Below are positions 1,324 to 51,812 of a DNA stretch of 64,000 bases, one piece after another (position 1 is the stretch's first letter; the number at the start of each line of letters is the position of its first letter). The position numbers and the translations under genes were made by a program. Origin of the DNA: Cephalotus follicularis (Eukaryota; Streptophyta; Magnoliopsida; Oxalidales; Cephalotaceae). The notes beneath the pieces are model-generated. The model was not told where the DNA came from and searched no databases. It saw only the letters and a program-made list of their open reading frames with translations. Where the stretch lies: the NCBI GenBank assembly GCA_001972305.1, contig BDDD01001461.1, positions 186,001 to 250,000 of the forward strand, written 5' to 3'.

Positions 1324-1679
1324 TGTCACGCCCCCGTTTCCCAAAACAAGACATCGTATAAAGTGGTAAGGCAATCAACAACAATAAGTCAGCTCATGCG
1401 ATAAAACGAATAAATAAAAAACCTTCTGTAGCGGAAGCAATAACATAATGAGCCGAATATAAATACGCATCACGCATCCCATACTACGTGATGCCCACAA
1501 TGTTTATAACGAATCCCAACATCAATGTCGATCGCCCAAAATGGAGCGTGAAATAATAATACAGTACGAGATAACAAAATATCCATTGTTACAATAATCC
1601 AAATACATAAATAAAAGAGATAACAAAGTCTTCTCTTTAAGTCTCCATGCATGCTCCATAACATATCCACTATGTCAAT

Positions 1680-3297
1680 CTGTTACAGTAGGGGTTAGCC
1701 TTTGTCCTCACTCGGCTTAGTGAATAAACCCATAAATACAGTTCGAGTCATATGATAATGAGTACCATGAATGAATGCATTGTGATGTAGTATGTAATTT
1801 TCACAATTATTTTATCTCCGTATGTACATATAAAAATATATGCATGTTCACAGTACAAGTATAACTCATAAGTTATATGCATGTTCACAGTACAAGTATA
1901 ACTCATAAGTTATATCAACACAAGCAGTAAATATGTTCCAAATAGGAACCAGACAAACCAATCGTCATGACCGTCGCCATCGCCTGGCCCCAACGTCATG
2001 CACTCTTACTCCATCCCCGTTTGCGAACGGTTTTGGAGCAAGTCCTCCGTAAGTTGTTTAGCACGACGGCTAAACCAACAGCTAGTTACCAGCACAGTGG
2101 CTAAGTAATCAAGAAGTTATCAGTACGGTGGCTAATAATCAACAGGCACAAGCATTGCACAGTACAAGTCAAGCAATAAAATATAATTACTTGATCAAAT
2201 ATATTTATTTAAAATATATTACTCCGTTCACAAGTTGTGATAAGTTATAAAACTTAAAACAATACATTTCTCCGTCTTTGGAAATACTTCCCCAATCATT
2301 TCGAAAAAATATATATATATATTCATATGTTGACAAATATACATTTTCTCACAATACATTTGATTGCATAATCAATCCTTTAAACATTTCTCCGTCTTTG
2401 GAAAATACTTTCCCAGCCAGTTCGAAAATATATAAAATCGTATGTTGACAAATATACATTTTCGTACACAAATGATTATACAAACTTTTCAAAATGGTTA
2501 ACACTTTTAGAAAGCAACCATAACGCAAATCACAGTAAAAATGCAACATATGCTCAGAATGCGTCTACGCTCGTTCCTAGAGTCGTTTCGGTTCTAGCGG
2601 GTCCCATTCAAGCGAAATTCCATTGATCAGGGGAAAAGGCGTCGATGTTTATCCTTAAGGCGCCGACGTCTTTACACTAAGGCATCGATCCCATGTATAA
2701 ATATTCCCAGGCATTCTTGGACCAAAGACGTCGATGTCTTTACAAAGACGTCGATGTCTTTATGATACCAGAGAGTATCAGTTCGCGAGTCTTGATTATG
2801 GAGGGTAGAATCCGGCCTTTTAATCCTTCATGTAAATGAATCTCACTCTCACAACGTGTAAGGCATGCTACTGGTTAACAGGAATATAACCAGAATATCA
2901 TTTCATGCATAAAACATGTAAACCCAAGGGTGATTTACCAACAACAGTAAGCACTACTGTTCTGTAATACCCAGAAAAGGCGTCGATGTCTATCAAAAGA
3001 CATCGATGTCTTTTACGTTTTTCACACGAAGGCATCGACATCTTCACCTATACGTCGATGTCTTTACAACCCAGAACGTCTTTTCCACAGTTTTAACACA
3101 CCAAGCCATTATCAAATCCATCCTTTACACAACAAATTCACGTATTCATGTAATCGTACATGCATAGTTAACTCCGTATATCACAGTAACACCACAACAA
3201 GTCCAGAATCATAATTCAACCATTAACATGCAATTCATCATGTTATTCATTAACTTAAAACCCAAAATACATGTATAAATCTATCACTTTCCCCTAC
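1680..3297 (-). other. Candidate leader intron inside element A LTR
   Basis: On the - strand the donor AAG|GTAGGG lies at 3298/3297. The 3' end is CTAAC, then CCCTACTGTAACAG|ATTGA ending at 1680. F and E have closely matching acceptors (CCCTACTATTCCAG|ATTGA and CCCTATCATTACAG|ATTGA). The predicted length is 1618 bp. Splicing is an inference from consensus and conservation; there are no transcript data. Confidence 0.45.
2638..3060. repeat. TCGA-core palindromes, A LTR cluster 1
   Basis: Units resemble AAAGACGTCGATGTCTTT, nearly self-complementary over 18 bp. The cores (TCGA or CCGA) start at 2642, 2663, 2685, 2731, 2751, 2983, 3003, 3035 and 3055. Successive gaps include 21, 22, 20, 20 and 20 bp, so neighbouring 18-bp units almost abut. 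Confidence 0.85.
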
Positions 3298-3824
3298 CTT
3301 ATTGTTCCAAGTTAGGAACTGGAAAGTCCACCTCTTTGAGTTCCCAAATTCTGGCCACCAGCAGCTCCAAGATCCTCTCAGCAACTGCTACCCACGAGTT
3401 CCAATCTCTAGCTCTAAGTAAGCTCAATAATGGTGGCTCACACACTCACTGGTTTTCCTCTCTTTACTCCCTTTGGTGTTTTAAAATGAGAGAGAGAAGT
3501 GGAGAGGGTCGTTCCTATGCAGGTGGCTTCCCCCAAACATCATTCTCCTAACATTTAATGGGCACTCTCATTCTCTCTCTCTCCTTCTTTCCAGATTCTG
3601 CACTTTTCTTTTGTTTTCTTTCCTTCTTTCTTTTGCAGATTGCATATGAGAATGGTATATTCCTTTGCATGTTCCATGTCAGGGGCACATTTTGAGCATG
3701 CCTGGCAACACACCAGCATGATCAACACGTCACAATGCACATGTTAAGGCGTCTGGTAAAGCCCCCAAAGATCCCATTGCATGTTACTCTGTCAGTGAAA
3801 AAAGTGACAGATGTTCTTTACAAA

Positions 3825-3975
3825 GGCATCGACGTCTTTCCTTAGACGTCGATGTCTTTTCCCTTTTAATAAGAAGGTGTCGATGCCTTTTCTCAATGTC
3901 AACATGCATGCCCATGCATTCACGTGTACCTCGGTTCCCATAGGCGTCGACGTCTTTAGAAAGACGTCGATGTCT
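3825..3975. repeat. TCGA-core palindromes, A LTR cluster 2
   Basis: Cores start at 3829, 3849, 3880, 3947 and 3967, again with two exact 20-bp pairs. The flanks keep the pattern AAAGRC..GYCTTT. This cluster lies upstream of the presumed leader in element orientation. The whole region is absent from the other A LTR. Confidence 0.85.
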
Positions 3976-4146
3976 TTTTCCTAAAACAGCATCGTTTAAG
4001 TTTTGACATACTCATTCCATTTCCAAAACCATAACTAGGGTTTGTAAGCATCTTTTGAGTTCAAAAACTCAACATTCTCATTAATTCAAGTTTAAGACTA
4101 CATCATAAATCAAAATATTACATTTAGGAAAATACCGGGCGTTACA

Positions 4147-7669: not shown

Positions 7670-8752
7670 TACTAGCTGGTCCAGTAGGTGCTGTAGCCTG
7701 ACTCTTCGAGCAATCTTTCTTTGAATGGCCAGATGCCCCACACCTCAAACATAGCCCGTTCATCCTCCAACAATCCTTCTGCAAGTGTCCCTTCCGACCA
7801 CAGTGATAACAAGCTCCGGTTCCGCATTACTCCCCTGACTAGGAGTCCCCAGTGTGGTAGTCTGCCCAGATCTGTTCTTCGATGATTTAGTCGGAGAACC
7901 ACTACCTTGCCATTTCGAAGAAGCTGGTCTTATCGGGTTCTGTTTAATTTGTTACGCCCGGGCCCTCTCTACTCGGTCCTCACTGGATATGCTCTACAAC
8001 AGTCTCGCCTTTTGAGCGACCTCCGAAAAATTACCCAGCTCCATAGCCCTAATCCTCGACCGAAGGTCCGGTCGCAAGCCCTTCAAAAACCTCCGTATCT
8101 TTTTCACATCATCAGCTACCAGATAGGGTGAATGTCGGGATAACTCCATAAACATGGCCTGGTACTCGGCCACAGTCATCTCCCATTGCCGTAACTCAAG
8201 AAGCTCTGTCTCCCTCCGCTCTTGCTCGATCTGAGATACATAGGAATTGAGAAACTCTGTCTGAAATCTCTCCCATGTAGCATCGAGCCCCAATGACTCC
8301 CACTTCGCTTTGACCATCTCCTACCAGTGAGTGGCCTCTCCCCATAGACGGTACACGACAAATTTCAGTTTCTGAGTATCAGTACAGTCCATCACTGCAA
8401 AAATCTTCTTCAAGTCTTGAAGCCATCTTTCAGCAATAGTGGCATCAAGTTCTCCCCGGAATCTAGGTGGATTCTGTCTCATAAACCTCTCGATGTCCTT
8501 CCCAAACTGGCTACCATCCTCTCCCGGGCAGTGATCGGGAGCTCTATGTTGCGGTCGAGCTTGCGCGTAATACTGACGCATCTCCTCCGCATTGGCCATA
8601 TTAAAGGTCATCTGTTGCTGGAAGTAGTCAGTAATCCGGGTCATCGGGTCCCTATCATCTTGGGGGACATTCACTCCTTGTGGCATGTTCACTGCCTCAG
8701 GGGCATTGGCTCCAACAGCTCTAGCCCTTCCACGAGTTCTCCTTCGGTCCAT
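7670..8752 (-). pseudogene. gag: Element A gag (dead)
   Basis: It starts at ATG 8752 (MDRRRTRGRARAVGANAPE), a basic N-terminus shared with E (MDPRRGRRGRRRAND). The retrotransposon capsid motif follows (NPPRFRGELDATIAERWLQDLKKIF at about 8415-8490, and TVAEYQAMFMELSRH at about 8120-8170). A TAG at about 8318 replaces TGG in the THWWEM block. The distal part with the zinc knuckle (CLRCGASGHSKKDC, about 7710-7755) is in another frame, so a frameshift lies between 7994 and 7784. Confidence 0.9.
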
Positions 8753-8848
8753 TGTTTCATATAAGAAGGACGTCGGTTAGTCACGACTTTAAGAAAACAG
8801 TTTATTGATTGCCAAGGAAAGTATCCTAGCTAAGCATATATGTAATAT

Positions 8849-8863: not shown

Positions 8864-9308
8864 TGTCACGCCCCCGTTTCCCAAAACAAGAAATTGTATA
8901 AAGTGGTAAGGCAATCAACAACAATAATTCAGCTTATGCGATAAAACAAATAAATAAAAAACCTTCTGTAGCGGAAGCAATAACAAAATGAGCCGAATAT
9001 AAATACGTATCACGCATCCCATACTACGTGATGCCCACAATGTTTATAACGAATCCCAACATCAATGTCGATCACCCAAAACGGAGCGTGAAATAATAAT
9101 ACAGTACGAGATAACAAAATATCCATTGTTACAATAATCCAAATACATAAATAAAAGAGATAACAAAGTCTTCTCTTTCCATTTCCAAAACCATAACTAG
9201 GGTTTGTAAGCATCTTTTGAGTTCAAAAACTCAACATTCTCATTAATTCAAGTTTAAGACTACATCATAAATCGAAATATTACATTCAGGAAAATACCGG
9301 GTGTTACA
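8864..9308 (-). repeat. Element A 5' LTR, internally deleted (445 bp)
   Basis: Both ends match the 3' LTR, but the + sequence jumps at about 9179 from the equivalent of 1638 to the equivalent of 4013. The 2.38 kb lost held all palindromes, the presumed promoter, the donor and the acceptor. The junction does not coincide with the candidate splice sites, so it is a deletion and not a splicing product. Confidence 0.93.
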
Positions 9309-9313
9309 TAAAG
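9309..9313. repeat. Target site duplication of element A, right copy
   Basis: TAAAG, identical to 1319-1323. It directly abuts a CGTCGACGCC palindrome of the F LTR. Confidence 0.93.
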
Positions 9314-9442
9314 CGTCGACGCCTTGATTGAAAGCGTTGACGCCTATGAAGTAAAAATGCGCACATGAGATCATGCACATGTACGTAGACACCATTGCAT
9401 GAAATGCCCAAAGCATCGATGCCTGCATGTAAATGTCGACGC
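9311..9442. repeat. TCGA-core palindromes, F LTR cluster 1
   Basis: AGCGTCGACGCC-like units have cores at 9316 (TCGA), 9337 (TTGA), 9416 and 9436. Spacings within pairs are 21 and 20 bp. Confidence 0.85.
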
Positions 9443-10257
9443 TTAGTGTCAAATATCAAACACGTTCTGATGCTAACATGAAACGTGCAAGGAGGCAAGT
9501 AATCAGGCGCCATTGAATGTTGAATGAAACATGTTGGTCATGCTTGCACGGCGTCAGGCATGCACCATCACTCCCTGTCCTGCATGACTGAAATAGGAGG
9601 AAGATTATGACATGTGTGTATGCATGCAAACCTGCAGAAAACAAATAGAAAAGAGACGCCACCTGCATGCCATCTAGATCGAATTTGAGGAAGAAATGGA
9701 CATGTGGCGCATGCAGGCTGAGAAAAGGGGAAGGAAATGGCACCTGGACCATGCAAAGGTGCTGGGAGAGAAAAGAGGAAAGTTAACCTGCATAAACACT
9801 CTATTCATGTCTCTCTCTCGCTCAATACCTTAGAGAGGAAAGAACCAGAGAAGATAGAGAGAAGGAGGAGAGGATTTCCTCCATTGTTGAACACCATTGT
9901 TGGACCACACTTAGAGGTTATGGCTTGTAGCTGCAGGATTGATCGTGGAGCTACTGTAACCAGATTTTGGAACACAAAGAGGTGGACTTTCAAGGTTTCT
10001 AACTTGAAACCAGAGGTAGGGGAAGTTATACATGAAAAGTTTGAGTTCAAAATTAATGTTTGCCATTGATGAGATGCATGAATCGCATGTTGAATTCGGA
10101 TTGTTTGGATTGCTGGATTGTTTGCATGGCTACTTTGATGTGTAGATTGTCCATGCATATAGTGTTTTAAGTGTGTATTGAGACTGGATTGCATGATTAT
10201 TGGGTTGCATATCTCCCTAGTTATTTATATGATGAAAACAATGGTCTTGAACCGTGT

Positions 10258-10770
10258 GGCCGTTGATGCTCACTATGGGCATCGACGCTTTGACACTTTG
10301 AGGCTTTAAACTGTGGCAGGAACTGTAGTGTTCATTTGGATGAATGCTTGATTGTTTGGACAAGGGATTACTGATACGATTGTGTAAGCTGTGAACCTGT
10401 TATGTACGTTATATCCTGCGAAATGTGGAATGGGTTACATGAATGTTTGGGAATGGATTTGCCCTGGTCTTGTTGCTGTCAAAGAAGATGAGTACCTGGT
10501 ATGGCCTAACCGTCGACGCTTAAAGGAAAGTGTCAACGCCTTGAGTTCTGCATATGGGAATCGGACACGTGAGGCATCGACGCCAAGGTTCCTACCTTAG
10601 CGTCGACGCCATCAAATATACGTCGATGCTCAAGGATCCTAGCCTTGAAGCATCGACGCTAATGACAAGGATAGACGCGAAGGTTACTGCGCTAAGCGCT
10701 AACGCCTGGTATGGAAGCGTCGACACTTAGAGAACATAAACGTCGATGCCCAGGGATAAACGTCGACGCT
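10258..10770. repeat. TCGA-core palindromes, F LTR cluster 2
   Basis: GCGTCGACGC-like units have cores at 10263 (TTGA), 10282, 10513, 10533 (TCAA), 10577, 10603, 10623, 10653, 10673 (decayed), about 10699 (decayed), 10720, 10743 and 10763. Gaps of exactly 20 bp occur at 10513-10533, 10603-10623, 10653-10673 and 10743-10763. Confidence 0.85.
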
Positions 10771-11099
10771 TAAACCCCTGTTTTGGACGTTTTCGCTTAG
10801 ATGACATCGGTTCAGCCCGGATTGACCCTAGGTGCATCTGAGCATATGTTTGCATTGCATACTATTGTGAATTGAGTTGTTGTTTGAGCTACTACGTGAT
10901 TTCTAAAATGTTCTTCATTTGAGAAATGTGTATATGATTGTGTATGGAAATGAATATTTTCCAAAAGGATTGTAAAAATGATTTCAAATAATTGAAATTA
11001 TGTATACAAAAATAAGTATTTTTGAAGGATTAAATGATTTGCAAAATAACTAGTTATACATTTTAAATAAATGCAATATTGTCAAGTATTTTATAAAAT

Positions 11100-15889: not shown

Positions 15890-15960
15890 GGCATCCGAGA
15901 CGAAGACACCATGAGCACACGAACTGCCAGGGCTGAGCACGAACTGCCAGGGCTGAGCGC
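15890..15960 (+). repeat. Short tandem GAGCACGAACTGCCAGGGCT repeat
   Basis: The 20-bp phrase GAGCACGAACTGCCAGGGCT and a GAGCACACGAACTGCC variant recur between about 15911 and 15955. The corresponding 3' LTR stretch (33268-33330) has a different copy arrangement. Confidence 0.6.
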
Positions 15961-16057
15961 CAGGGAAGGAGTGTTGTGACGCCAATGCTGAGCGCCAGGG
16001 ACGAGCGCCCGGGCTGCCATGGCTAAGCTGCAGTGCTGAGCCCCACTGTTCATGCCC

Positions 16058-16175
16058 GAGATGCCATGGTGGACGCCAGAGCTGCCGTGGTGGGACGCCT
16101 GAGCTGCCATGGTAGACGCCAGAGATGCCATGGTGGACACCCGAGCTGCCAGGGTTGAATGCCGAGCTCCACGCC
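16058..16175 (+). repeat. 21-bp tandem array with CCATGG cores, B 5' LTR
   Basis: Units beginning GAGMTGCC start at 16058, 16079, 16101, 16122, 16143 and 16163 (spacings 21, 22, 21, 21, 20). Most units hold a self-complementary CCATGG or its one-base variant, so short palindromes recur about every 21 bp. The 3' LTR copy (about 33425-33490) has fewer units. Confidence 0.85.
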
Positions 16176-23327: not shown

Positions 23328-23657
23328 TGTCACACCCCGTTATTTCAATCCATCCTTGACAGGCATATATGGTGATATCAGTATTAAACATACATTCTGG
23401 CATTTCATTAAACAGTATATAACAATATGCGGAAGCAGTCAATAAGCCAGAATATAAAGAAACATAAGTCTTCCGCACGCATCCCATACTACCAGCGGTT
23501 ACAGTTAACAATTATCCTTAACATAAGGAATACAATAAAACGAGGTATGAGTCGTTCGTTCATTACAATTCAAATACAGAACATGAATAACAACCTTAAA
23601 AGATAAAAGAAGCTCTCCCAAAGCTTCAGCGGCAAGTTTCGAATGTCCTTGCTCAAT

Positions 23658-25542
23658 CTGTAATGATAGGGGTTAGCCGTTGTCCTCACTTGGCTAAGCA
23701 GGAAGATAGTGTATGCAGAAGAATATATGAATGCAATTATGTATGACAGTTTATATCAAATATCATTTAATAGCCGATATGAGCAAACATGTCAAGTGGC
23801 CATAAACAGTTCATATGCAATAATACCTCACAAGAGTACAATCAATTCATTCAGTCGTTTGGGTGTCACATGTCGCTAACTCCTAGCCCCCAACTGTGCA
23901 CCACCTAACTATCACCCTACACTCCGAGAATGATAGAAAAGGTATCAGTTACTACCGGCGTTGGCGGGTAGTTTAACAGTAATTCTGCAATTGCAGACAG
24001 TAGGAGATACTCTGGCCAACTCCTGGCACCCAGAATCACATCCATAGTCAGTGATAACCTCCATCACCGAACTACGGCAGTAAGCATAGACAATCAATTC
24101 AATCAGTAGTAATATTACATATATAATTTATATGCAATATCAGATGTTTTCTTTAGAAACATATAACAGTTCAGTAATCGTGCATCTCATATGAGGAAAC
24201 GATATCAGTACAGTAGGGGTTTCCGATTCGAAAACAAAACAGTCAGTACCTCTCATGTGGAGGAAAACAGTAGTTTATCTTAACAATAAACTTCTTTTGA
24301 AAATGATAGTAAGTTATCATAATTTTGGGTTCAAGTCCCATAAACGGTTTCAATCTTTAAAATATCAGTAGTAGCGGTGTTAATAGCACCAAACAGTATG
24401 TATATACTAATATAAGTAGTATATACGGTAACATTAATCAAAACAGTAGTTTTGTAATCAATAGTCCCATTTGGAAATGATGTTTAAACCATAATTTGTA
24501 CATGTAGTACTTAGTTCGATCAATCATTGAAATATCAGTAAATAATGATGTTAACAACATCAACCAGTAGGTATATACTAACATAAGTAGTATATGCAGT
24601 AATATTAACTCAAACAGTAGTTTTCATAAATCATAACATTCACTTGGAATGGTGTTTAAGCCATAAATTGTGCATATAGCACATAATTCGTTCGATCAGT
24701 GAAATTTCAGTAGTAATGATGTTATCTAACATCCAACAGTATGTATTATATGATGGTATCATATACAAATCAGTAGCAATGTAATTCAGCAGCAATTTCA
24801 TTGATGTTATGCAATTTTCTGCCCAGAACAGTCGACTGCCTCAAGAACCAGTCGACTGTTGGGTTGAGTAGTCGACTGCTTTGGGTGGCAGTCGACTGGT
24901 TTTGCCCAGAAATGCAGGCAGACAGTTTTGTGTAATGCCATTTCAATGCCAAATCAGTCCAATGCAAGTAGAAATTAACATACATATAGTGCATGATCAT
25001 ATCTTCCAAAACATAACACTACCCCTACCTCAATTTGCTATCCCAAGATCAATTGAATGATCTTTCTCTTTAAAGCTTCCAAGCCTTTTCCGACCAATCT
25101 TCAATCCAATCCTTTTAATCTCAGCAAGTTACAATCTAAACATGTATGTTATGGATACATGCAATCAGTTTCAGTGGATTCAGTAATCATTCATAACCAT
25201 TCCAATCGGTAGCTTAATTCATTAGTTTATTAAGCATATATCAATTCCCTTTTATCACCATTATGCATTTCCACTATCTTAATTCATTTCCTCTTAGTGA
25301 TCAGTAGGTGTATCTATATATTCATGAGTAATTCAGTAGCTTATCATGGCACTAACAACAACCTTCTAACCAATTTAGAGATTGCATATTCATTTACTTG
25401 AACTAATGTGCCATATTGCATATCACTTCCATAAATCCTAGAAGATGTTTAATCAATCATGTTAACAGGAGATTAAACCTTCATCTAGATACATTACTGT
25501 TGGATTATAACACCACATTAACAGGTTCGGATTGGAACTTAC
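23658..25542 (-). other. Candidate leader intron inside E 3' LTR
   Basis: The donor GTAAGT (25537-25542, - strand) is a strong consensus. The acceptor CATTACAG|ATTGA lies at 23658 with CTAAC just upstream. In the 5' LTR copy the acceptor CAG reads CAT (about 30639), so a transcript from that LTR would lack this acceptor. A second donor-like GAG|GTAGGGG lies at about 25030. Confidence 0.4.
24829..24898. repeat. Four CAGTCGACTG palindromes at exact 20-bp spacing (E 3' LTR)
   Basis: Perfect 10-bp palindromes start at 24829, 24849 and 24889; the unit at 24869 is TAGTCGACTG. The 10-bp linkers are unrelated to each other, so only the palindromes and spacing are conserved. Confidence 0.92.
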
Positions 25543-25756
25543 CAGGAAATGCTCAAGCTTCACTTTTCCTTCTTTGAGCTTCAACTTCAAATTCCTCCAA
25601 TGTAAGCTCTCAATCAAAACTCTCAGCAATTCTCTTTAATGTTCAGTGTTTCTAACACTCCCAAATAGTAAGAATTGGACAATTAATTCAATTAAAATGT
25701 ATATTTATTATAATAATGGAAATCAATATACATTAATTGAATTTGCAGTTATTACA

Positions 25757-25792
25757 TTCCTCCCTCCTTAAAGAAAATTCGTCCTCGAATTT
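25757..25792 (-). other. Element E polypurine tract and stem-loop
   Basis: - strand TAAGGAGGGAGGAA (25757-25770) abuts the LTR. AAATTCG and CGAATTT (25792-25786 and 25781-25775) form a perfect 7-bp stem around AGGA, downstream of the pol stop. Confidence 0.85.
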
Positions 25793-25802
25793 AGCCTTTA
25801 CA

Positions 25803-27130
25803 TTACATTTCAAAAAGTTGGGGAAATGTCTCCCTCATTTCTTCCTCACGTTCCCACGTAGCCTCCTCCGCTCCGTGAAAATGCCACAACACCTTGACCA
25901 TAGGGATGGCCTTGTTCCTTAGAACCTTTTCCGTGCGATCCATAATCCTCGTTGGCCTTTCTTCATAAGTCAGCCTCGGGCTAATGAATCCAGGGTCGTA
26001 GCTCAAAATGTGAGATGGGTCGGGTATGTATTTCCGTAACATGGAAACATGAAATTTGTTATGCACATCCGACAAGCTAGGTGGTAGTGCAATCTGGTAT
26101 GCTACCTCCCCCACTCTATCCAGTATCTCGTAAGGTCCAATATACCTTGGAGCTAACTTCCCCTTGAGGCCAAAACGGTATATCCCCTTCGAAGGCGAGA
26201 TCTTCAGGAAAACATGATCTCCCTTCTCAAACTCTAGCTTTCTTCTCTTGCTGTCGGTGTAACTCTTCTGCCGACTCTATGCAGCTAGCAGTCTTTTCTT
26301 GATCATCTCCACTTTATCAGTGGTCTCTTGCACCAAGTCCGGTCCCAGCACCTGTCGCTCACCTACCTCATCCTAACAAATAGGTGATCTGCATTTTCTC
26401 CCGTATAAGGCTTCATAGGGAGCCATTCCGATGCTGGTATGGAAACTATTGTTGTAGGAGAACTCAATCAAGGCTAGATGATCCTCCCAACTCCCAGTAA
26501 AATCAATCATGCAAGCCCGTAACATATCCTCCAGAGTCTGGATCGTTCTCTCGGACTGTCCGTCAGTCTGTGGGTGAAATGCAGTGCTGAAACTCAAGGT
26601 GGTTCCCATAGCTATTTGGAACTTCTTCCAGAACCTTGATGTAAATCTAGCATCTCGGTCGCAGACAATACTGACCGGCACCCCATGCAATCTCACTATC
26701 TCCCGGACATATAATCGAGCAAGCTTCTCGATAGAATATGTCATGTTCATCGGAAGAAAGTGTGCGGACTTAGTAAGTCTGTCCACAACAACCCATACGG
26801 CATCATGCTGATTCCGTGACCTCGGCAATCCTGACACAAAGTCCATGGTCACGTGACTGTACCTCGATTTGTGAGCTTGTTGCAGTAGCTCATTCTTGAT
26901 AGTCTCATCATCAGGTACACATATCCTTCCCCGAAACCTCAGTATGCCATCAGTATGTACGGAGAACTCAGAATCAGTGTCAAGGTTCTCACGAACACTC
27001 CACAAATCGGTATCACTATACTGAGCAGTCAAAATACGCTCAAGAAGTTCCGGTTGTGCTCTCATACTTGCCACAATCACACCTCGGGAAACCATGAACG
27101 AATTCCATCTCTGAAATTCCTCCAATAGGT
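25803..27130 (-). pseudogene. pol: Element E integrase (zinc domain deleted) and chromodomain
   Basis: The catalytic core is readable ([33 protein letters not shown]). Upstream, the translation passes directly from AHKSRYS to HVTMDF at about 26855: about 60 residues holding HPG and the CLTC half of the H2C2 zinc finger are missing in frame. TAG codons near 26372 and 26278 precede the terminal frame 25803-26114 with the chromodomain ([20 protein letters not shown]). The loss should disable integrase multimer function. Confidence 0.93.
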
Positions 27131-27640
27131 TCCACTGTGAAACCATAGCTCCCGCAATCATCGCCTTGCGACTCAGCGCATCAGCTACTACATTTGCCTT
27201 CCCCAGGTGGTACTGAATATTACAGTTATAGTCATTGAAGAACTCCACCCATCGTCTCTGTCTCATGTTGAGCTCCTTCTGGGAAAACAAGTATTTTAAG
27301 CTCTTGTGGTCAGTAAAAATTTCGAACTGTGCTCCATAGAGATAGTGCCTCCATTTCTGTAAAGCAAATACTATGGCTGCCAGTTCCAGATCGTGTACGG
27401 GATAGTTTTCCTCGTACGGCTTCAGCTTCCTCGATGCGTATGCTATCACCCTGCCATGTTGCATCAGAACGCATCCCAATCCTTTCCCAGAAGCATCAGT
27501 GTAGACAGTAAATCCCTCATTACCCTCAGGTAATGCTAGCACTGGAGCCGAAATCAACCGACTCTTCAACTCCTGGAAACTTGCCTCGCAAGACTCGTCC
27601 CACACAAAGCTGGACTTCTTCTGCGTCAACTGTGTCAGCG
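27131..27640 (-). pseudogene. pol: Element E RNase H
   Basis: Part of the 590-residue open frame 26373-28145: [79 protein letters not shown]. No lesion seen within the domain. Confidence 0.9.
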
Positions 27641-28553
27641 GTGCAGCAAGTTTTGAGAATCCCTCGATGAATCTGCGGTAATAGCCAGCCAATCCCAAGA
27701 AACTACGCACCTCCGTAACGTTTCTCGGTTGGGTCCAATCAACAATGCTCTCAATCTTCGAAGGATCCACTGACAATCCTTCACTCGACACTATGTGACC
27801 TAAGAAAGTCACATGATCTAGCCAAAATTCGCACTTGCTGAATTTGGCGTACAGCTGTTCCTTCCGTAATACCTGCAATACAATCTGTAAATGCTGCATG
27901 TGTTCCTCAACGCTCTCTGAGTAGATCAAGATGTCATCTAAAAATATCACAACAAACTGATCAAGATAAGGTTGGAACACTCTGTTCATTAGACACATAA
28001 AAGCTGCAAGAGCATTCGTTAAACCAAATGGCAATATCAGAAACTCGTAGTGCCCATATCTGGTTCGGAATGCAGTCTTCTCCACATCACCTTCTCGGAT
28101 CCTCAGTTGATGATAGCCTGTTCTTAAGTCAAGCTTGGAGAACACAGTCGAGCCTTGTAACTAGTCGAACAATTCCTCAATATGTGACAGAGGATATTTG
28201 TTCTTCACCGTCACTTGATTCAGCAGTCTGTAATCAATGCATAACCGCATCGATCCATCCTTCTTCTTCACAAACAGAACCGGTGCTCCCCATGGTGACA
28301 CACTTGGTCTGATAAATCCTTTGTCAAGGTAGTCCTGCAGTTGAACTTTTAACTCCTTCAGTTCGGTAGGAGCCATTCGGTATGGTGCTTTTGATATAGG
28401 GGCAATCCCAGGCTGTAGTTCAATACTGAACTCAATATCTCTCTCCGGTGGCAGTGAAGTGAGATCATCGGGAAATACATCAGGAAAATCACATACGACT
28501 GGAACTTGCTCTATACTCGGCGTACCTTTCGTATGATCAATCACATACGCCAA
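27641..28553 (-). pseudogene. pol: Element E reverse transcriptase (one stop)
   Basis: [68 protein letters not shown] and the catalytic [11 protein letters not shown] (about 27920). A TAG at about 28160 (expected glutamine) is the only break visible in RT. Confidence 0.92.
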
Positions 28554-28589
28554 ATAGCCTTCACACCCTTGCTTGAGATACTTATGTGC

Positions 28590-29010
28590 TCAGGTATATG
28601 AAATGATCGGAGCAGTAACATTCTTCTCTCCGATAAACTTGCACTCTGTCCCATCTTTCAAGTAGAATGTCATCATCTTGTTGTAGCAATCAACACAAGC
28701 ATGATGAGCATATAACCAATCCATCCCCAAGATTACATCAAAATCTCGGATAGGCAACACTATCAGGTCAGCGGATAATTTAATCCCAGCTAACATGATT
28801 TCACAGTCATTCAGAACAGTATCGGATAAAAGACAAGTACCCGCAGGAGTACTCACCTCCAAAACATATGGCAATCTAGCAGTTAGACCATGCAACTTGC
28901 AAGCAAAACTAGATGCAATAAAAGAATGTGTTGCACCAGGGTCAATCAACGCATGTGCTAATATGCCAGATATGTAAATGGTACCTCCCACAACAGTAGT
29001 GGATTCTGGC
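28590..29010 (-). pseudogene. pol: Element E aspartic protease
   Basis: ALIDPGATHSFIASSF (about 28905-28950) and VILGMDWLYAHHACVDCYNK (about 28690-28750). The motif is DPG, not DTG, as in B. A TGA at about 28588 separates it from RT. Confidence 0.88.
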
Positions 29011-30205
29011 ACGTCACCTTTAGATAAGGTGTAGACCCTACCTTTCATGATCCCCTTTCCGGTGTCCTTCTGCGGTTGAGCTGCCGCAACACTACCACTC
29101 GCACCAGCACTCCCCTGTTGGCTGCGTGCATGATCTCTAATCATTGGACATTTACTCAGCATGTGATCTTGCGCACCACATCTCAAACACTTCCCCATTT
29201 TCTTCCAGCATTCGGCCTCATCATGGTTCTGACGACCGCAAAAAGTACATCCACTGGCGTTCTGCTGACTGTTTCGGCCAGGTGTCCTTGATCGTGTGCG
29301 TCGAGACCCACCTTGCCCTCTGTTATCAGACTTGTTTGATCTAGCAGGATTATTACTTCCCTGCCCTTGTGACTGTACGGCCCTTGATTGAGTAGCTCGA
29401 GACCGTTCTGTCCTTCTCTCATTAGCATCTTCCTCGAGAATCATTGCCCTCTCAGCAACTTCAACAAAAGATGTAAGCTGCAGCGCCAACAGTTTGGATC
29501 TGATATCAGGTCGAAGGCCTTTTAGGAACCTCCGGATCATCCATGACTCTCCCTCTACTAGATAAGGCGTGTGTCTGGCCAGCTCTATAAATCAAATCTG
29601 GTACTGAGCTACCGTCATGTCTCCTTGACGTAGCTCCATCAGATCTGTCTCCCATCTGTCACGCTCTATCTGCGGTACATAAGCATCCAGAAACTCGGAC
29701 TGAAATCTGTCCCAAGTTCTGTTGAGTCCACGGGATTCCCATTTAGTTCTGTTCTCTCCCACCAGTACGTCGCTTCGCCCCATAGGCGGTACACAGCAAA
29801 ACTGAGCTTCTGCTCATCAGTACAGTCTAGAGCAGTAAATATCTTCTCCAGATCTCGAATCCATCGCTCAGCTGCAGTGGCATTCAGCTCGCCATTAAAG
29901 GTCGGAGGATTCTGTCGCATGAACCGCTCCAGATCTCGGCCAAATCCGCCTGCATGACAAGCATCCGGTGCTGGTTGATATGCCCGGTTAGCCTCATACA
30001 TCTGTCGGATCTGCTCCATGTTTGCTGCATTTGATTGCATTTGCTGTCGGAAGAGATCAGCCAGGTTATCAAAATTACTCCGCTCCTCATGGACTGGAGG
30101 AACGTTCACCTCTTCATTCATTTGCGGAAAATTTTCGGGTACGGGCGGAGCATTGAATCCGTCGTTGGCTCTACGCCTTCCCCTCCGTCCTCTTCTTGGA
30201 TCCAT
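29011..30205 (-). pseudogene. gag: Element E gag (frameshifted)
   Basis: ATG at 30205 opens a basic N-terminus (MDPRRGRRGRRRAND). The capsid motif PTFNGELNATAAERWIRDLE lies at about 29850-29910. A small indel near 29750 shifts the frame, and a TGA near 29590 follows DMTVAQYQI. Two CCHC knuckles (CTFCGRQNHDEAEC, CLRCGAQDHMLSKC) lie at about 29145-29255, preceded by an R/S/Q-rich linker. It is otherwise the best preserved gag here. Confidence 0.92.
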
Positions 30206-30293
30206 TTAGTTTCCTATATGGAATGACAAAAATCATTAGGAAACATTTCATTAATTTCCGAGAAACTTATCCCAGCTAGCATATATGGAATAT

Positions 30294-30305
30294 ACTCTGA
30301 TACCA
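30294..30305 (-). other. Element E primer-binding site
   Basis: - strand TGGTATCAGAGT, one base off the usual TGGTATCAGAGC, three bases after the 5' LTR end. Confidence 0.93.
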
Positions 30306-31809
30306 TGCTGTCACACCCCGTTATTTCAATCCATCCTTGACAGGCATATATGGTGATATCAGTATTAAACATGCATTCCGGCATTTCATTAAACAGTATA
30401 TAACAATATGCGGAAGCAGTCAATAAGCCAGAATATAAAGAAACATAAGTCTTTCACACGCATCCCATACTACGTGCGGTTACAGTCAACAATTATCCTT
30501 AACATAAGGAATACAATAAAACGAGGTATGATTCGTTCGTTCATTACAATTCAAATACAGAACATGAATAACAACCTTAAAAGATAAAAGAAGCTCTCCC
30601 AAAGCTTCAGCGGCAAGTTTCGAATGTCCTTGCTCAATATGTAATGATAGGGGTTAGCCGTTGTCCTCACTTGGCTAAGCAGGAAGATAGTGTATGCAGA
30701 AGAATATATGAATGCAATTATGTATGACAGTTTATATCAAATATCATTTAATAGCCGATATGAGCAAACATGTCAAGTGGCCATAAACAGTTCATATGCA
30801 ATAATACCTCACAAGAGTACAATCAATTCATTCAGTCGTTTGGGTGTCACATGTCGCTAACTCCTAGCCCCCAACTGTGCACCACCTAACTATCACCCTA
30901 CACTCCGAGAATGATAGAAAAGGTATCAGTTACTACCGGTGTTGGCGGGTAGTTTAACAGTAATTCTGCAATTGCAGACAGTAGGAGATACTCTGGCCAA
31001 CTCCTGGCACCCAGAATCACATCCATAGTCAGTGATAACCTCCATCACCGAACTACGGCAGTAAGCATAGACAATCAATTCAATCAGTAGTAATATTACA
31101 TATATAATTTATATGCAATATCAGATGTTTTCTTTAGAAACATATAACAGTTCAGTAATCGTGCATCTCATATGAGGAAACGATATCAGTACAGTAGGGG
31201 TTTCCGATTCGAAAACAAAACAGTCAGTACCTCTCATGTGGAGGAAAACAGTAGTTTATCTTAACAATAAACTTCTTTTGAAAATGATAGTAAGTTATCA
31301 TAATTTTGGGTTCAAGTCCCATAAACGGTTTCAATCTTTAAAATATCAGTAGTAGCGGTGTTAATAGCACCAAACAGTATGTATATACTAATATAAGTAG
31401 TATATACGGTAACATTAATCAAAACAGTAGTTTTGTAATCAATAGTCCCATTTGGAAATGATGTTTAAACCATAATTTGTACATGTAGTACTTAGTTCGA
31501 TCAATCATTGAAATATCAGTAAATAATGATGTTAACAACATCAACCAGTAGGTATATACTAACATAAGTAGTATATGCAGTAATATTAACTCAAACAGTA
31601 GTTTTCATTAATCATAACATTCACTTGGAATGGTGTTTAAGCCATAAATTGTGCATATAGCACATAATTCGTTCGATCAGTGAAATTTCAGTAGTAATGA
31701 TGTTATCTAACATCCAACAGTATGTATTATATGATGGTATCATATACAAATCAGTAGCAATGTAATTCAGCAGCAATTTCATTGATGTTATGCAATTTTC
31801 TGCCCAGAA

Positions 31810-31879
31810 CAGTCGACTGCCTCAAGAACCAGTCGACTGTTGGGTTGAGTAGTCGACTGCTTTGGGTGGCAGTCGACTG
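31810..31879. repeat. Four CAGTCGACTG palindromes at 20-bp spacing (E 5' LTR)
   Basis: Starts at 31810, 31830, 31850 and 31870, identical to the set at 24829. Confidence 0.92.
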
Positions 31880-32911
31880 GTTTTGCCCAGAAATGCAGGC
31901 AGACAGTTTTGTGTAATGCCATTTCAATGCCAAATCAGTCCAATGCAAGTAGAAATTAACATACATATAGTGCATGATCATATCTTCCAAAACATAACAC
32001 TACCCCTACCTCAATTTGCTATCCCAAGATCAATTGAATGATCTTTCTCTTTAAAGCTTCCAAGCCTTTTCCGACCAATCTTCAATCCAATCCTTTTAAT
32101 CTCAGCAAGTTACAATCTAAACATGTATGTTATGGATACATGCAATCAGTTTCAGTGGATTCAGTAATCATTCATAACCATTCCAATCGGTAGCTTAATT
32201 CATTAGTTTATTAAGCATATATCAATTCCCTTTTATCACCATTATGCATTTCCACTATCTTAATTCATTTCCTCTTAGTGATCAGTAGGTGTATCTATAT
32301 ATTCATGAGTAATTCAGTAGCTTATCATGGCACTAACAACAACCTTCTAACCAATTTAGAGATTGCATATTCATTTACTTGAACTAATGTGCCATATTGC
32401 ATATCACTTCCATAAATCCTAGAAGATGTTTAATCAATCATGTTAACAGGAGATTAAACCTTCATCTAGATACATTACTGTTGGATTATAACACCACATT
32501 AACAGGTTCGGATTGGAACTTACCAGGAAATGCTCAAGCTTCACTTTTCCTTCTTTGAGCTTCAACTTCAAATTCCTCCAATGTAAGCTCTCAATCAAAA
32601 CTCTCAGCAATTCTCTTTAATGTTCAGTGTTTCTAACACTCATTCACACCACTCAACAGCTGATATAAGCCATGAATTCGCCAGAGTTCATTTGCTCTAA
32701 CACTTCTCTATTTTCCTCTCACTCACATGCCTTTGTTTCTTGTTAATTTCTCCTTTCAATGTTGCAGGTACAGGTCTGTCATTGCAGAGCACATGCAAGG
32801 GCATGCAAGGCATCACATAGCATGTTATGGTAGCTTAGGACACGTACCCCCCATGCATGCCACGCCCAAGATCAGTTGACACCTGCACAGACACATGTTC
32901 TGTCGAAATTA

Positions 32912-32991
32912 CAGTCGACTGGATTCATGGGACAGTCGACTGTCCTCAACACGCAGCAGGCAGTCGACTGATACCCTGTGTCAGTCGGCTG
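32912..32991. repeat. Second CAGTCGACTG cluster, present only in the E 5' LTR
   Basis: Starts at 32912, 32933, 32961 and 32982 (last one CAGTCGGCTG), spacings 21, 28, 21. The cluster lies in the 428 bp missing from the 3' LTR and upstream of the presumed leader in element orientation. Confidence 0.9.
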
Positions 32992-33165
32992 TCAAGGGTC
33001 AAATTAGGGTTTCTTAAATGGATTTCCACCAATTTGCATCACAATTCATTCCAAGTAAAATTACCAAACACAAATAGTAAGAATTGGACAATTAATTCAA
33101 TTAAAATGTATATTTATTATAATAATGGAAATCAATATACATTAATTGAATTTGCAGTTATTACA

Positions 33166-33170: not shown

Positions 33171-34870
33171 CACCCTCACCAGCGGGTGCCGAGCTCCCTT
33201 TACAGCCAGCACACACTGATCATGCATCCAGAACATTAAACACAGGGCATCCGCGATGAAAACTCCATGAGCACATGAACTGCCAGGGCTGAGCACGAAC
33301 TGCCAGGGCTGAGCACACAAACTGCCAGTGTTGAGCGCCAGGGGAGCAGTGCTGTGACGCTAGTGCTGAGCGCCAGGGATGAGCGCCCGGGCTGGCATGG
33401 CTGAGCTGCAGTGCTGAGCCCCACAGTTCATGGCCAAGCTTCCATGGTGGATGCCAGAGATGCCACGGTGGTCGCCCGAGGGTTGAATGCTAAGCTCCAC
33501 GCCCGAGCTCCACGCCATGCCATGGTGGATGCGAAGCAACACGCCAGTGGAGGCCTAGGAATATTTGTGACTGTGATGACAAAAACCATGGCTTGAGTTG
33601 AGATGCCAGGGGAGACGAATGAAGAGGGGATGACCCACACATGCTGCGCGCTGGGACGCCAATACCAGAGGTGCCGACCTGGGCCTCCCTTGCCATGCAT
33701 TCCCAGTAGCCTTCCCTGCTCTGCATCCACTGCACGTACTTTCCCTATCCAGAACCGAATATGCAATTCCTGCCTACTGGCGTGGTTCCCTGCTCTGCTC
33801 ACCTTTTAAGAAAATGTTATGTCAAGATGCATGCGCATCTCGCGTGTGCTTAACTGGTGAATTAAGAGGCCAGCATGCGCCATGCAGCATGTCCATTTGC
33901 ACGTTGGACGCCTAACAATTCCCTGCATGCGACATGCATGGGTAATGAGGTGAGTTGTGAGTGTGGGATAGCATCGTATACTCTCTTATGTTCATGACAT
34001 ACTAAGGGAATGGAATGAATAGTAGAAATGAAACTAGGACAGGGAATAAAAAAGGAAAAGACTTAGATAGATGGTCCCAGGCAAGTGAGCCCAACAGGGG
34101 AGAATTCCGCCGAGCAGGTGAACCCAAGGGGTGAACTCCATGAGGCCAGTGATCCCGGGTGAATCCGCCAATGGTGAACCTAAGGGTGAATTCTGCCAAA
34201 GCCGGTGATCCAAAGGGTGAACCGCAGAGCAGGTGAGCAAAGGGCGAATTCCGCTCAACAGGTGAACCTGGAGGAGAATTCTGCGTGCTGGTGAGCCTAA
34301 AGGTGAACCATGTACACTGACAAGACCATAGGATGACCAGACTAGACTCCTCTGTATGTGATATGTATGGTTTGAGTAGAGTATTCCGAGGACAAAGGAT
34401 GAATAAAGGTTATGTCATGGATTGTGATATGCCTTCATGTTATGCAATTATGTATTATTGTTTCTCCTCTGCTTTTATTGTTTGTTCCCCTGGTATGTGC
34501 CCGTTAATGTGGTAACCTACACAACCCTCAGGGTTGCTGACCCATTCTTTTGAATGGGCCAGGTACAGGAACAGGTAGTGGAGTCACATCGTAGCAGTGG
34601 AAAGGATAAATAGTACAGTAAGTTTCTCCTCCTCGACAGTATGCTTCCATGGACAAAGTTGCTAGAAATAAATTATTTATTTATTTTATTCAGCTTTATA
34701 ACAGTGTAATTTATATGATTTGAACTAGGTCTGTATATCCACACATTAAATAAAGGATTATGGTTATGATTTATTTTAAGTTTTAATTTTTTTATGCTTA
34801 ATTTTTATGACAATTGTACGGATTCCCACGTGTCGAGTCATGGGCACATCCCACGGTTCGGGGAGTGACA
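33171..34870 (+). repeat. Element B 3' LTR, second part
   Basis: Continues the LTR interrupted at 23327 and ends CGGGGAGTGACA. It contains the 29-bp-type array (34082-34310) and the CTGAC/stem-loop/GGTACAG block at about 34532-34570. The 21-bp array is shorter than in the 5' LTR. Confidence 0.94.
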
Positions 34871-38265: not shown

Positions 38266-38536
38266 CGGTGTAGTGTTAGAGTGGTCGTACCAGATAATGG
38301 GGTGTACTGGGAATTTATCATCATATTGTAGAACGACATGCTTTCGAGTCCTGCCTGACTTTGAACATGTTGATATGTGGCTGGACACATATCATTTAGT
38401 GAAGGACAACATCAGGGAAGATGTTGTTTTGCTAGTGAGTTTTTCATTTGATGGATTTAAGTCTATGCAATGCCACGATGAAATATTTCATCGAAGGTTT
38501 TTGAAAATAAAAGAGATTGTCTTTGTTCTTTGTCTT

Positions 38537-38957
38537 GGGCGTCAACGCTATGAGTACGCATCGACGCCAATGTCTAGTTGGGCCGCTGGGCGTTAACGCT
38601 ACAGATAGCATGGCGTTGACGCTGGGAAAACCAGTAGCTTTACGCATCGACGCCATGGGATTTAGGCGTTGACGCGAAGACAGGTGACACTATGCACCTG
38701 TCTCATATTATCTATGGCGTGGACGCCTTTTTTTTTCATAATGTGAGACGTATGACGTCGACGCCTTGATAACGTGTTGACGCCATGACAGGCTGATGCG
38801 CGCTACAGTATCAGAGAGAAAGTCAACAATATATATAGCTTGAGAGAAGCTTTCAAGACACACTTCAGACTTTCTTCCTTCTTTCTCCTCCCTACCATGC
38901 AATCTCTTCTTCTTGCTTGCATACACGTCGACGCCTATCGCCAACACGTTGACGCCT
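38537..38957. repeat. TCGA-core palindromes around the TATA box
   Basis: GCGTCGACGCC-like cores are at 38542 (TCAA), 38561, 38593 (TTAA), 38616 (TTGA), 38647, 38669 (TTGA), 38720 (TGGA), 38758, 38777 (TTGA), 38928 and 38949 (TTGA). Pair spacings are 19, 23, 22, 19 and 21. The last pair is downstream of the TATA box. Confidence 0.8.
38830..38837 (+). promoter_or_regulatory. TATA box candidate
   Basis: TATATATA followed by GCTTGAGAGAAGC, an inverted repeat with GCTT arms, then a CT-rich leader. Confidence 0.5.
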
Positions 38958-51616: not shown

Positions 51617-51812
51617 GGCTCATCTCGGTGGGTGATTAGTCGGCTCATCTCAGTTGGTGATCCGATGGCTCATCTCGGTCGATGATCCATTGGGCTATCT
51701 CGGTGATCCCGTAGGCTCATCTCAAAAATAGCCTTGCCGGCTCATCTCAATCGGTGATTTGACGGCTCATCTCAATCGGTGATCAGTCAGCTCATCTCAA
51801 TTGGTGATCAGG
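51617..51812. repeat. 25-bp GGCTCATCTC repeats, C 5' LTR
   Basis: Same organisation as 44363-44556, including the short unit. Confidence 0.9.

Follow-up and report, generated by a model that had tools for sequence, protein, structure and literature searches.

LTRs of two retrotransposon superfamilies in the genome of Cephalotus follicularis carry arrays of short palindromes whose near-constant part is RTCGAY, mostly GTCGAC, and these cores recur about every 10.24 bp, at odd and even helical turns alike, across 200–600 bp per array. The carriers are Ty3 chromoviruses, presumably of the Tekay lineage, and Sireviruses (Ty1/copia). We think it rather probable that the palindromes are clustered candidate sites for a dimeric, probably host-encoded DNA-binding protein that would act on LTR transcription. 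The window analysed, to which the coordinates below refer, is a 64,000-nt stretch of the assembly GCA_001972305.1 (contig BDDD01001461.1, positions 186,001–250,000, forward strand). It contains the following features.

1324–4146, minus strand: 3' LTR of element A, a Tekay-like Ty3 chromovirus; 2823 bp, with three TCGA-palindrome clusters
2635–2761, minus strand: palindrome cluster of the A 3' LTR; cores at 1393, 1413, 1459 and 1502 of the sense LTR
2976–3065, minus strand: palindrome cluster of the A 3' LTR; cores at 1089, 1109, 1141 and 1161 of the sense LTR
3822–3977, minus strand: palindrome cluster of the A 3' LTR; cores at 177, 197, 264, 295 and 315 of the sense LTR
8864–9308, minus strand: 5' LTR of element A, shortened by an internal deletion (about 2.37 kb; self-BLAST, junctions read)
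9309–9446, unstranded: F-type palindromes at the A insertion site; GCGTCGACGC at 9313–9322, further units to 9446
10506–10774, unstranded: another F-type cluster, some 1.1 kb away from that at the A insertion site
23328–25756, minus strand: 3' LTR of element E; cluster at 24825–24902 retained
30309–33165, minus strand: 5' LTR of element E, a Ty3 chromovirus; 2857 bp, with CAGTCGACTG-type clusters
38535–38936, unstranded: the 38.5-kb region, mostly decayed F-type units; GCGTCAACGC, GCGTTGACGC, GACGTCGACGCC
52953–55519, plus strand: 5' LTR of the G element, a contrast case; RTCGAY is missing, and the single TCGA palindrome, close to the end, is at chance level

The A 3' LTR has TG..CA ends, as read from the sequence, and the element is bounded by a 5-bp target duplication, TAAAG, at 1319–1323 and 9309–9313; this duplication plus one base adjoins the GTCGAC at 9315. 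AAAGACGTCGATGTCTTT is found at 2724–2741, 2744–2761 and 3960–3977. All three palindrome clusters are missing from the A 5' LTR through its deletion of about 2.37 kb. A solo-LTR insertion as the source of this difference was rejected: the ends lack TG..CA, and loci L034 and L032 carry A-type LTR sequence, arrays included, from the LTR start. A deletion is therefore likelier. Element E (23328–33165) is flanked on both sides by the target duplication CGACA. Its 5' LTR has clusters at 32908–32994 (sense LTR cores 198, 226 and 247) and 31806–31883 (cores 1289, 1309, 1329 and 1349), and the LTR-proximal cluster is gone from the 3' LTR through a deletion of about 0.4 kb. The F-type cluster at 10506–10774 was assigned to no element type. 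Ordinary short tandem repeats without helical phase occur at 54060–54197 in the G 5' LTR.

Palindromes were counted as TCGA centres with at least three of five arm pairs matching and compared with 500 dinucleotide shuffles per LTR. The original prediction had placed them in all the LTRs it named. Their density exceeds that of the shuffles in the A LTR (12 palindromes; shuffle mean 0.88, maximum 5), the F region at 9310–10900 (8; mean 0.49, maximum 5) and the E 5' LTR (7; mean 0.54, maximum 4), whereas the 38.5-kb region has 2 (mean 0.32, maximum 2; not significant) and the X2, G and C LTRs, tested in full, have 0 or 1 each, within chance. Pairs of palindromes 19–22 bp apart number 4 in A, 1 in F and 4 in the E 5' LTR, with none in 500 shuffles of each. 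The X2, G and C LTRs contain one RTCGAY in total, and the palindrome attributed to X2 and G, GAGTYRACTC, has just three occurrences in the window, at 35136, 43375 and 63990, all of them outside the X2 and G LTRs. The 38.5-kb LTR, which had been described as an F-type TCGA carrier, has mostly TTGA/TCAA forms.

The observation is confirmed, and it is larger than first noticed. At least four of five arm pairs match at 20 of the 202 TCGA centres in the window, compared with 0–7% for the 15 other self-complementary cores. In 200 kb sampled at random from the 1.58-Gb genome, where TCGA is the outlier among the 16 self-complementary cores, the corresponding figures are 66 of 657 (10.0%) and 1.0–3.3%. 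Genome-wide, CAGTCGACTG occurs 197,377 times (reversed control, 939) and GCGTCGACGC 73,186 times (control, 121), and mixed half-sites are scarce by comparison with either (12,715).

The central TCGA had been called constant; the constant part is wider, RTCGAY. The arms had been said to differ between families while staying self-complementary, which holds between types: among 286 distinct clustered units, the inner flanks are A..T in 75, C..G in 98, one of each in 37 and other bases in 76. Arm complementarity peaks between matching positions (z 8.4, 6.1 and 5.8 at positions 4–6), with z at most 3.4, and often negative, between unmatched ones. Within types, covariation is weak: p is 0.16, 0.10 and 0.10 at positions 5–7 of E-type arms, and in C..G-type arms p is 0.0002 at position 6, 0.03 at position 5 and 0.04 at position 9, while positions 7 and 8 show none and position 3 pairs less often than expected. 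Across six E-related LTR copies, identity is 0.84 in the core, 0.68 in the arms and 0.66 outside; 14 of 16 control hexamers lie at 0.44–0.75, and the other two reach 0.86, on 6 and 18 columns. These two hexamers, the weak within-type covariation, and the arms of E relatives being conserved no better than background count against a dimer model. In the same six copies, the block in which units are gained or lost spans about 22 or 47 columns. The commonest unit, AAAGACATCGACGCCTTT in sense orientation, is represented by 38 Tekay A-type units and by 52 Sirevirus units, its 14th base in the latter being no more than the most frequent one. In the AAAG type, the commonest unit departs from symmetry at two of nine pairs.

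The predicted spacing of 19–22 bp, most often exactly 20, stands for the window, where 14 of the 35 neighbour spacings up to 120 bp are 20 bp (both E LTRs counted). In the genome the mode is 21 bp: among the 100 listed GTCGAC pairs 10–40 bp apart (all on one contig, of 224,538 genome-wide), 48 have this spacing and 81 are spaced 19–22 bp. E-type spacings of 28 and 49 bp, which are not whole turns, are also common (7 and 23, each among 100 pairs listed separately) and count against a dimer model. In 250 kb of random genome sequence, TCGA has the strongest periodicity in the 10-bp range among 255 4-mers (power 207.5 at 10.25 bp), and the 4-mers ranking next overlap it. When spacings below 28 bp are left out, the power is still 154.5 at 10.25 bp and at most 9.3 anywhere in 19–23 bp. 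Odd-turn spacings are as common as even-turn ones, the third turn excepted. The signal belongs to the RTCGAY hexamers (mean cosine 0.38–0.54; other NTCGAN, at most 0.23), and a bootstrap over loci places the 10.24-bp period at 10.18–10.29 bp.

With one representative for each of 15 BLAST groups (78 cores), the mean cosine over 222 pairs, of which 105, 30 and 28 come from three loci, is 0.612, and the null maximum in 2000 trials is 0.159. Gaps of at least 25 bp, taken from independent groups, hold phase as well (n = 34, Rayleigh p 0.0005). Single arrays also keep register, two instances being 18 sites within 604 bp (R 0.83) and 16 sites within 514 bp (R 0.88), and 12 of the 14 arrays with at least seven sites reach p < 0.05 at their own best period. 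Phasing is found in Tekay E-type LTRs (best period 10.22 bp, mean cosine 0.67; jitter-null maximum 0.20) and in the Sirevirus or Sirevirus-like arrays L013, L017 and L027 (10.24 bp, 0.56; null maximum 0.09). The proposal of a shared function, at the DNA level and with two-turn spacing, is supported. Tekay A-type arrays are weakly phased (best period 10.48 bp, cosine 0.25; at 10.25 bp 0.11, p 0.04). Phasing at 10.25 bp is absent from the window taken alone (mean cosine 0.04, 91 pairs), and the F cluster at 10514–10764 alone has no helical phasing (p 0.09). These weak and absent signals count against a dimer model. Tandem repeats of other kinds, in the corresponding part of X2-like and G LTRs, were considered as a second phased motif and rejected, as they are not phased.

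Pfam scans found RVP, RT, RNase H, integrase core and, below the cut-off, Chromo (E 0.0019) in E, and zinc knuckle, RVP, H2C2, integrase core and, again below the cut-off, Chromo (E 2.3e-5) in A, where the scan covered regions other than RT. Because a chromodomain of one kind terminates A, E, X2 and G alike, these elements appear to form a single Ty3 chromovirus lineage, and no chromodomain difference was seen between array-bearing and array-free families. From their Ty3-type gag-pol and chromodomain, we take A and E to be Tekay elements. Relatives of the E RT–integrase piece come from many flowering plants; among the matches listed, the best-covered are 52–63% identical, and the most identical has 74% over 73% of the query. 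A and E are not Sireviruses, having Ty3 domains with a chromodomain, and the window has a single AGGGGGAG, at 49690. L013 is a Sirevirus (AGGGGGAG tracts, AT/TG LTR start, copia gag PF14223), as is L017 (CA/ATTGG junction, Pol_BBD, gag_pre-integrs); L027 has AGGGGGAG tracts only, and its Sirevirus identity is less sure. The claim that the palindromes recur in unrelated LTRs fails for A and E, which both look Tekay, and holds genome-wide through the Sirevirus loci outside the window.

The A LTR has 14 RTCGAY cores, one L013 LTR has 12, each L017 repeat copy has 15, and the E 5' LTR has only 7 intact ones. In the Tekay LTRs seen, arrays lie at about 180–320 and 1040–1500 bp from the LTR start (cores at 177–315 and 1089–1502 in A, 198–247 and 1289–1349 in E, 179–298 and 1092–1384 in L032, 199–295 and 1228–1291 in L033), and the L013 Sirevirus array lies at about 125–465 bp. 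The first sense TATAWAW past the last core of the second cluster is 212 bp downstream in A and 704 bp in E. A Tekay LTR family and the Sireviruses share an almost identical 18-bp unit, which has the same sense orientation in both. ORFs that overlap the A and E LTRs reach at most 120 aa, and those of at least 150 aa inside the two elements are gag-pol by domain or position. Their first ORFs (8324–8776 in A, 29669–30205 in E) have no significant Pfam match and are probably, by position, the start of gag.

Since the boxes keep helical register, they would act as double-stranded DNA on one face, and the near identity of an 18-bp unit between Ty1 and Ty3 elements suggests a factor external to both. 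Taken together, these patterns suggest that one plant protein docks onto both retrotransposon kinds. An element-encoded binding factor seems less likely, since A and E show no recognised spare ORF; the host is the probable source, although the first ORFs of A and E, which lack a significant Pfam match, might still encode such a factor. Each putative site would be a 10–18-bp dyad with a nearly fixed RTCGAY centre; neighbouring dimers two helical turns apart would be in contact and bind cooperatively, and such cooperation would keep further sites in register on the same DNA face. The arrays, in the 5' half of LTRs, would most likely recruit a plant nuclear factor controlling LTR transcription, with activation as our first guess and nucleation of silencing as the second. 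A small family of paralogues differing in arm preference could stand in place of a single factor. Barley CBF is reportedly linked to GTCGAC, and a literature search on this link gave no useful paper. Overall, the original interpretation is partly supported.

The main rival, to which we give a modest chance, is nucleosome rotational phasing or DNA bending, in which RTCGAY steps set histone wrapping without a sequence-specific protein. Nucleosomal DNA has about 10.2 bp per turn; the observed 10.24 bp (10.18–10.29) is close to this value and, by the usual figures, nearer to it than to free DNA, which counts against a dimer model. Beyond the units, WW dinucleotides stand at 0.23 in phase with the cores and reach 0.44 on the far side of the helix (p 0.035), with SS showing the reverse trend (p 0.005), although decayed, unmasked units may be the source of both signals and TA steps have no phase (p 0.90). 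Bending, moreover, needs no 10–18-bp dyads, the preferred step is two turns rather than one, and coherence up to 600 bp exceeds one nucleosome. RNA hairpins are improbable as the function. The arms would pair in LTR transcripts around a UCGA loop and serve packaging, RNA dimerisation or small-RNA triggering; a later Sirevirus paper by Bousios and colleagues in 2016 reportedly argues for hairpins and small RNAs. A perfect 18-mer would fold (−8.0 kcal/mol), and each of the nine arrays folded exceeds its shuffles in stability on either strand (sense z −2.6 to −6.9), but sense-strand A-C mismatches occur in the AAAG-type unit, whose 18-mer does not fold in sense (0.0) and does in antisense (−3.5). 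The same asymmetry is found in L027, L013 and L017 (sense −142.6, −129.2 and −122.3 versus antisense −234.9, −206.9 and −182.0), the gap being smaller for the A LTR of the window (−132.7 and −63.6 versus −147.5 and −66.0). Helical phasing, moreover, would be meaningless in single-stranded RNA.

Neutral tandem duplication of a 20–21-bp unit, with the symmetry inherited from one founding unit, would account for the block-wise expansion and contraction of units and for the 20-bp units that TRF detects in the A and E LTRs. We consider it unlikely, given that odd turns match even ones in frequency apart from the third, that gaps of at least 25 bp in independent groups are in phase, that other tandem repeats in X2-like and G LTRs are unphased, and that the core outlasts its surroundings in E-related copies. 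That the arrays are integrase landing sites drawing insertions of the same or other families seems very unlikely. A-family LTR ends do peak exactly 6 bp before GTCGAC, in 15 of 94 distinct cases (among 100 listed of 158 matches) versus 3 expected (p 3.6e-7 for one of 31 gaps), element A of the window sits at this spacing, and plant LTR elements are reported to have a weak palindrome preference (PMC6911290). Nevertheless, the counts at 0–30 bp and at 31–60 bp from A LTR ends are nearly equal (158 and 142), so the arrays as a whole are not insertion targets. Symmetric cytosine-methylation targets are the reading we credit least, and barely at all. Every core has a CpG at its centre, and TTGA and TCAA variants follow the core phase weakly (mean cosine 0.25 and 0.20), which fits decay of methylated CpG; yet CpG methylation requires neither 5–9-bp arms nor two-turn spacing, and the CpG-centred ACGT, CCGG and GCGC have no symmetry excess in 200 kb of random genome sequence.

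To return to the dimeric protein, a stronger form of the proposal is possible but doubtful: one host dimer would coat the LTRs of both superfamilies as a one-faced cooperative array hundreds of bp long, the elements would have converged on or exchanged its sites, and the A-C mismatches in AAAG-type sense strands would keep the transcript free of hairpins and, in this way, out of reach of small-RNA silencing. If true, sites for a single such factor would number several hundred thousand in the repeats of this plant. The sharing suggests that a single host protein may be an object of competition among plant retrotransposon families, or may keep them in check, and the helical register and shared unit provide bait for finding the protein that would bind LTR boxes.

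It had been stated that no described element class has this feature. Palindromic, family-specific LTR boxes have in fact been known since 2010 for Sireviruses, in the repeated motifs (RM boxes) that the main text of Bousios et al. 2010 (PMC2829016) presents as palindromes with dyad symmetry and element-specific arms. According to that text, RM boxes occur in many copies, mostly in the first LTR half starting 200–400 bp in, and also upstream of an additional gene; a conserved TATA box lies shortly downstream of them; they are Sirevirus-specific within a Ty1/copia data set, the other Ty1/copia elements lacking them; CGG-CCG is the core they have in common, with 2 of the 13 motifs TCGA-centred (CGGTCGACCG and ACAATCGATTGT); and the sections consulted mention no known binding factor. 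A term search of the same main text returned no 'apart', 'periodic' or 'phased' and a lone 'spacing' in a reference title. The units described here are likewise palindromic boxes with dyad symmetry, A, L013 and L017 each have at least eight copies, as RM-bearing elements do, and Sirevirus loci of this genome carry such arrays. In contrast to RM boxes, the core here is RTCGAY, and the arrays also fill Ty3 Tekay LTRs.

Among titles and abstract starts, with most subscription papers lying outside the search, we found no prior report of helically phased LTR palindromes; the Tekay occurrence, the common TCGA core and the helical phasing appear to be new. By its title and the start of its abstract, the work on CENH3 nucleosome positioning on maize repeats (PMC3053214) concerns centromeric nucleosomes. 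Jedlicka et al. 2019 (PMC6911290) also tie palindromes to plant LTR retrotransposons, as a weak effect at insertion target sites rather than as arrays within LTRs. A further parallel is provided by the VANC target motifs of Arabidopsis VANDAL elements, described as dense short motifs in non-coding transposon parts (Hosaka et al. 2017, PMC5735166) that evolve via tandem repeats into family-specific variants (PMC5735166; Sasaki et al. 2023, PMC10398659). The arrays of C. follicularis resemble them as short, densely repeated motifs in non-coding transposon parts with family-specific variants. VANC motifs, however, have a single orientation and are bound by a transposon-encoded protein (PMC5735166), whereas the sites here are phased dyads in elements, A and E, with no spare ORF recognised.

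Element A is a Ty3 chromovirus of what we take to be the Tekay lineage, marked by its LTR ends, a TAAAG target duplication and a chromodomain. Its LTRs in the window, which derives from a 1.577-Gb assembly, are as follows.

1324-4146, minus strand: 3' LTR of element A, holding the region 2638-3975 in which palindromes were initially noted
8864-9308: 5' LTR of element A, in which a loss of about 2.37 kb took out every palindrome cluster

The original observation that TCGA-core palindromes recur in several LTRs of the window held for A, F and E, where they lie far above dinucleotide shuffles (500 shuffles each), but not for the 38.5-kb stretch, which had no significant excess over 500 such shuffles, nor for X2 and G, whose LTRs, like those of C, contain 0 or 1 TCGA palindrome each in both copies tested, the chance level.

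Deletion has removed sites from one LTR each of element A (5') and element E, another Ty3 chromovirus, whose 3' LTR lacks about 0.4 kb with the LTR-proximal palindrome cluster (25660-25662 against 32642-33070). Each E LTR also contains a tandemly repeated 171-bp unit in 2.3 copies (24350-24746, 31331-31727). The C LTRs (44363-44552, 51617-51811) carry a different array without TCGA palindromes, whose unit (GGCTCATCTCGGTCGGTGATCAGTC) measures about 25 bp. Tandem repeats of 13-21 bp (CTGCCATGG and similar) occur in X2-like and G LTR regions (15912-16168, 33268-33336, 54060-54197, 61530-61649) and showed no helical phasing when tested; those of G sit about 1.1 kb into the LTR, the place of the second palindrome cluster in A and E.

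The palindromes are abundant throughout the genome. We sampled 30 random stretches (250 kb, including 11,060 N bases). In the first 200 kb, TCGA was the outlier of 16 self-complementary cores, with at least 4/5 arm pairs at 66 of 657 centres; for the other cores the proportion was 1.0-3.3%. Exact whole-genome counts gave, per strand, 18,614 and 18,817 occurrences of AAAGACGTCGATGTCTTT (reversed control, 86 and 75) and, in all, 197,377 of CAGTCGACTG (control, 939) and 73,186 of GCGTCGACGC (control, 121). The mixed word CAGTCGACGC occurred 6,335 and 6,380 times (control, 174 and 185), whereas random joining of half-sites would give an arithmetic estimate of about 240,000, a shortfall much of which family structure alone can explain. 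GTCGAC pairs numbered 224,538 at 10-40 bp (control, 3,925) and 206,352 at 41-70 bp (control, 4,059).

Core-to-core distances follow the helical repeat. When every TCGA site is counted, palindromic or not, the distances peak every ~10.25 bp out to ~250 bp, the third turn being weak, and TCGA ranks first of 255 4-mers for periodicity in the 250-kb sample. The period is 10.24 bp (bootstrap over loci, 10.18-10.29). After removal of spacings below 28 bp, the 10.25-bp power remains 154.5 and nothing at 19-23 bp exceeds 9.3; thus, odd turns are occupied as readily as even ones. The signal is carried by the four RTCGAY hexamers, with a mean cosine (strength of helical register) of 0.38-0.54, against at most 0.23 for other NTCGAN words. 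Because the repeats are related, 44 clusters were reduced to 15 BLAST groups, each represented by its richest cluster. These representatives gave a mean cosine of 0.612 versus a jitter-null maximum of 0.159, and their gaps of at least 25 bp were likewise in phase (n=34, Rayleigh p 0.0005). Phase is kept across 200-600 bp in single arrays, and 12 of the 14 arrays with at least seven sites, each taken at its own best period, reached p<0.05; the exceptions were L027 7001-7316 (0.10) and the window F cluster (0.09). Counting against phasing are the window by itself (mean cosine 0.04), the weak phasing of Tekay A-type arrays, and the 28- and 49-bp spacings of the E-type, which are off register and common among the matches listed.

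Left and right arms are most complementary at matching positions (z 8.4, 6.1 and 5.8 at positions 4-6; unmatched, at most 3.4), mostly through differences between unit types. Arm covariation inside a unit type, a check originally proposed for families, was seen in the C..G class, clearly at position 6 (p 0.0002) and slightly at 5 (0.03) and 9 (0.04), with pairing under expectation at position 3; no position was significant in the E-type. Six LTR copies related to E, drawn from five loci, were 84% identical in core columns, 68% in arms and 66% in the remainder; 14 of 16 control hexamers lay at 44-75%, and two, with 6 and 18 columns, at 86%.

Tekay LTRs carry the E-type arrays, at ~180-300 and 1040-1400 bp counted from the start of the LTR. 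AAAG-type arrays have two kinds of carrier, Tekay LTRs (window A, L032, L034) and Sirevirus loci outside the window: L013 (copia gag, an AT/TG LTR start at 7317 and numerous AGGGGGAG tracts), L017 (CA/ATTGG junction, copia domains) and, less surely, by tracts only, L027. At E 1e-8, no extended homology was found between the A LTR and these three. The commonest sense unit, AAAGACATCGACGCCTTT, is nevertheless common to both, with 38 Tekay and 52 Sirevirus units (22 in L013 and 30 in L017, where two copies with 96% similarity contribute; in Sirevirus units the 14th base is a plurality call). Either convergence towards a single host factor or the transfer of a small module can account for this. 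All three PF20167 ORFs found have an upstream palindrome array (L013:4902-6256, L027:2615-5268, L027:7001-9688). PF20167 is a putative plant transposon protein, and two of these three arrays are individually phased to a significant degree.

Among the matches listed genome-wide, 15 of 94 distinct A-family LTRs end exactly 6 bp before GTCGAC (3 expected), as does window element A (9308-9323). Overall GTCGAC density near A-family LTR ends is barely raised, with 158 occurrences at 0-30 bp and 142 at 31-60 bp.

In sense, positions 3 and 5 of the commonest AAAG-type unit are A-C mismatches, so that the sense unit cannot form the hairpin that the antisense can; the antisense AAAG-type 18-mer folds and the sense does not. 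With respect to transcription, this asymmetry points the same way in Ty1 and Ty3 elements (L013, L017, L027, window A). Sense RNA is 60-92 kcal/mol less stable than antisense in the L013, L017 and L027 arrays and only 2-15 kcal/mol apart in the window A LTR, all folded arrays, these included, being more stable than shuffles. For L024, a minus-strand LTR folded on the plus strand, the sense and antisense values must be read interchanged. E-type units show little strand bias. The sense-strand folding deficit and the helical phasing together favour a role as double-stranded DNA.

We infer that a dimeric protein, probably host-encoded, would occupy the arrays cooperatively on one face of the DNA, and that bound arrays would affect LTR transcription in a direction we likewise infer. 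The strongest rival is a rotational code for nucleosomes, because the 10.24-bp period is close to the nucleosomal repeat and WW/SS dinucleotides outside the units share the phase of the cores, a phase that could also stem from decayed units.

The kind of feature is already known, since Sirevirus LTRs bear palindromic repeated motifs whose arms vary between elements; according to Bousios et al. 2010 (PMC2829016), their core is CGG-CCG, with a TCGA centre in 2 of 13 motifs. The original statement that no described element class has such palindromes is thus superseded. As far as our literature searches show, the occurrence in Tekay, RTCGAY as common core, the helical register, and one unit in two superfamilies of one genome are new. 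Published Sirevirus boxes also lie upstream of the ENV gene, and the L013 and L027 arrays before PF20167 ORFs resemble them.
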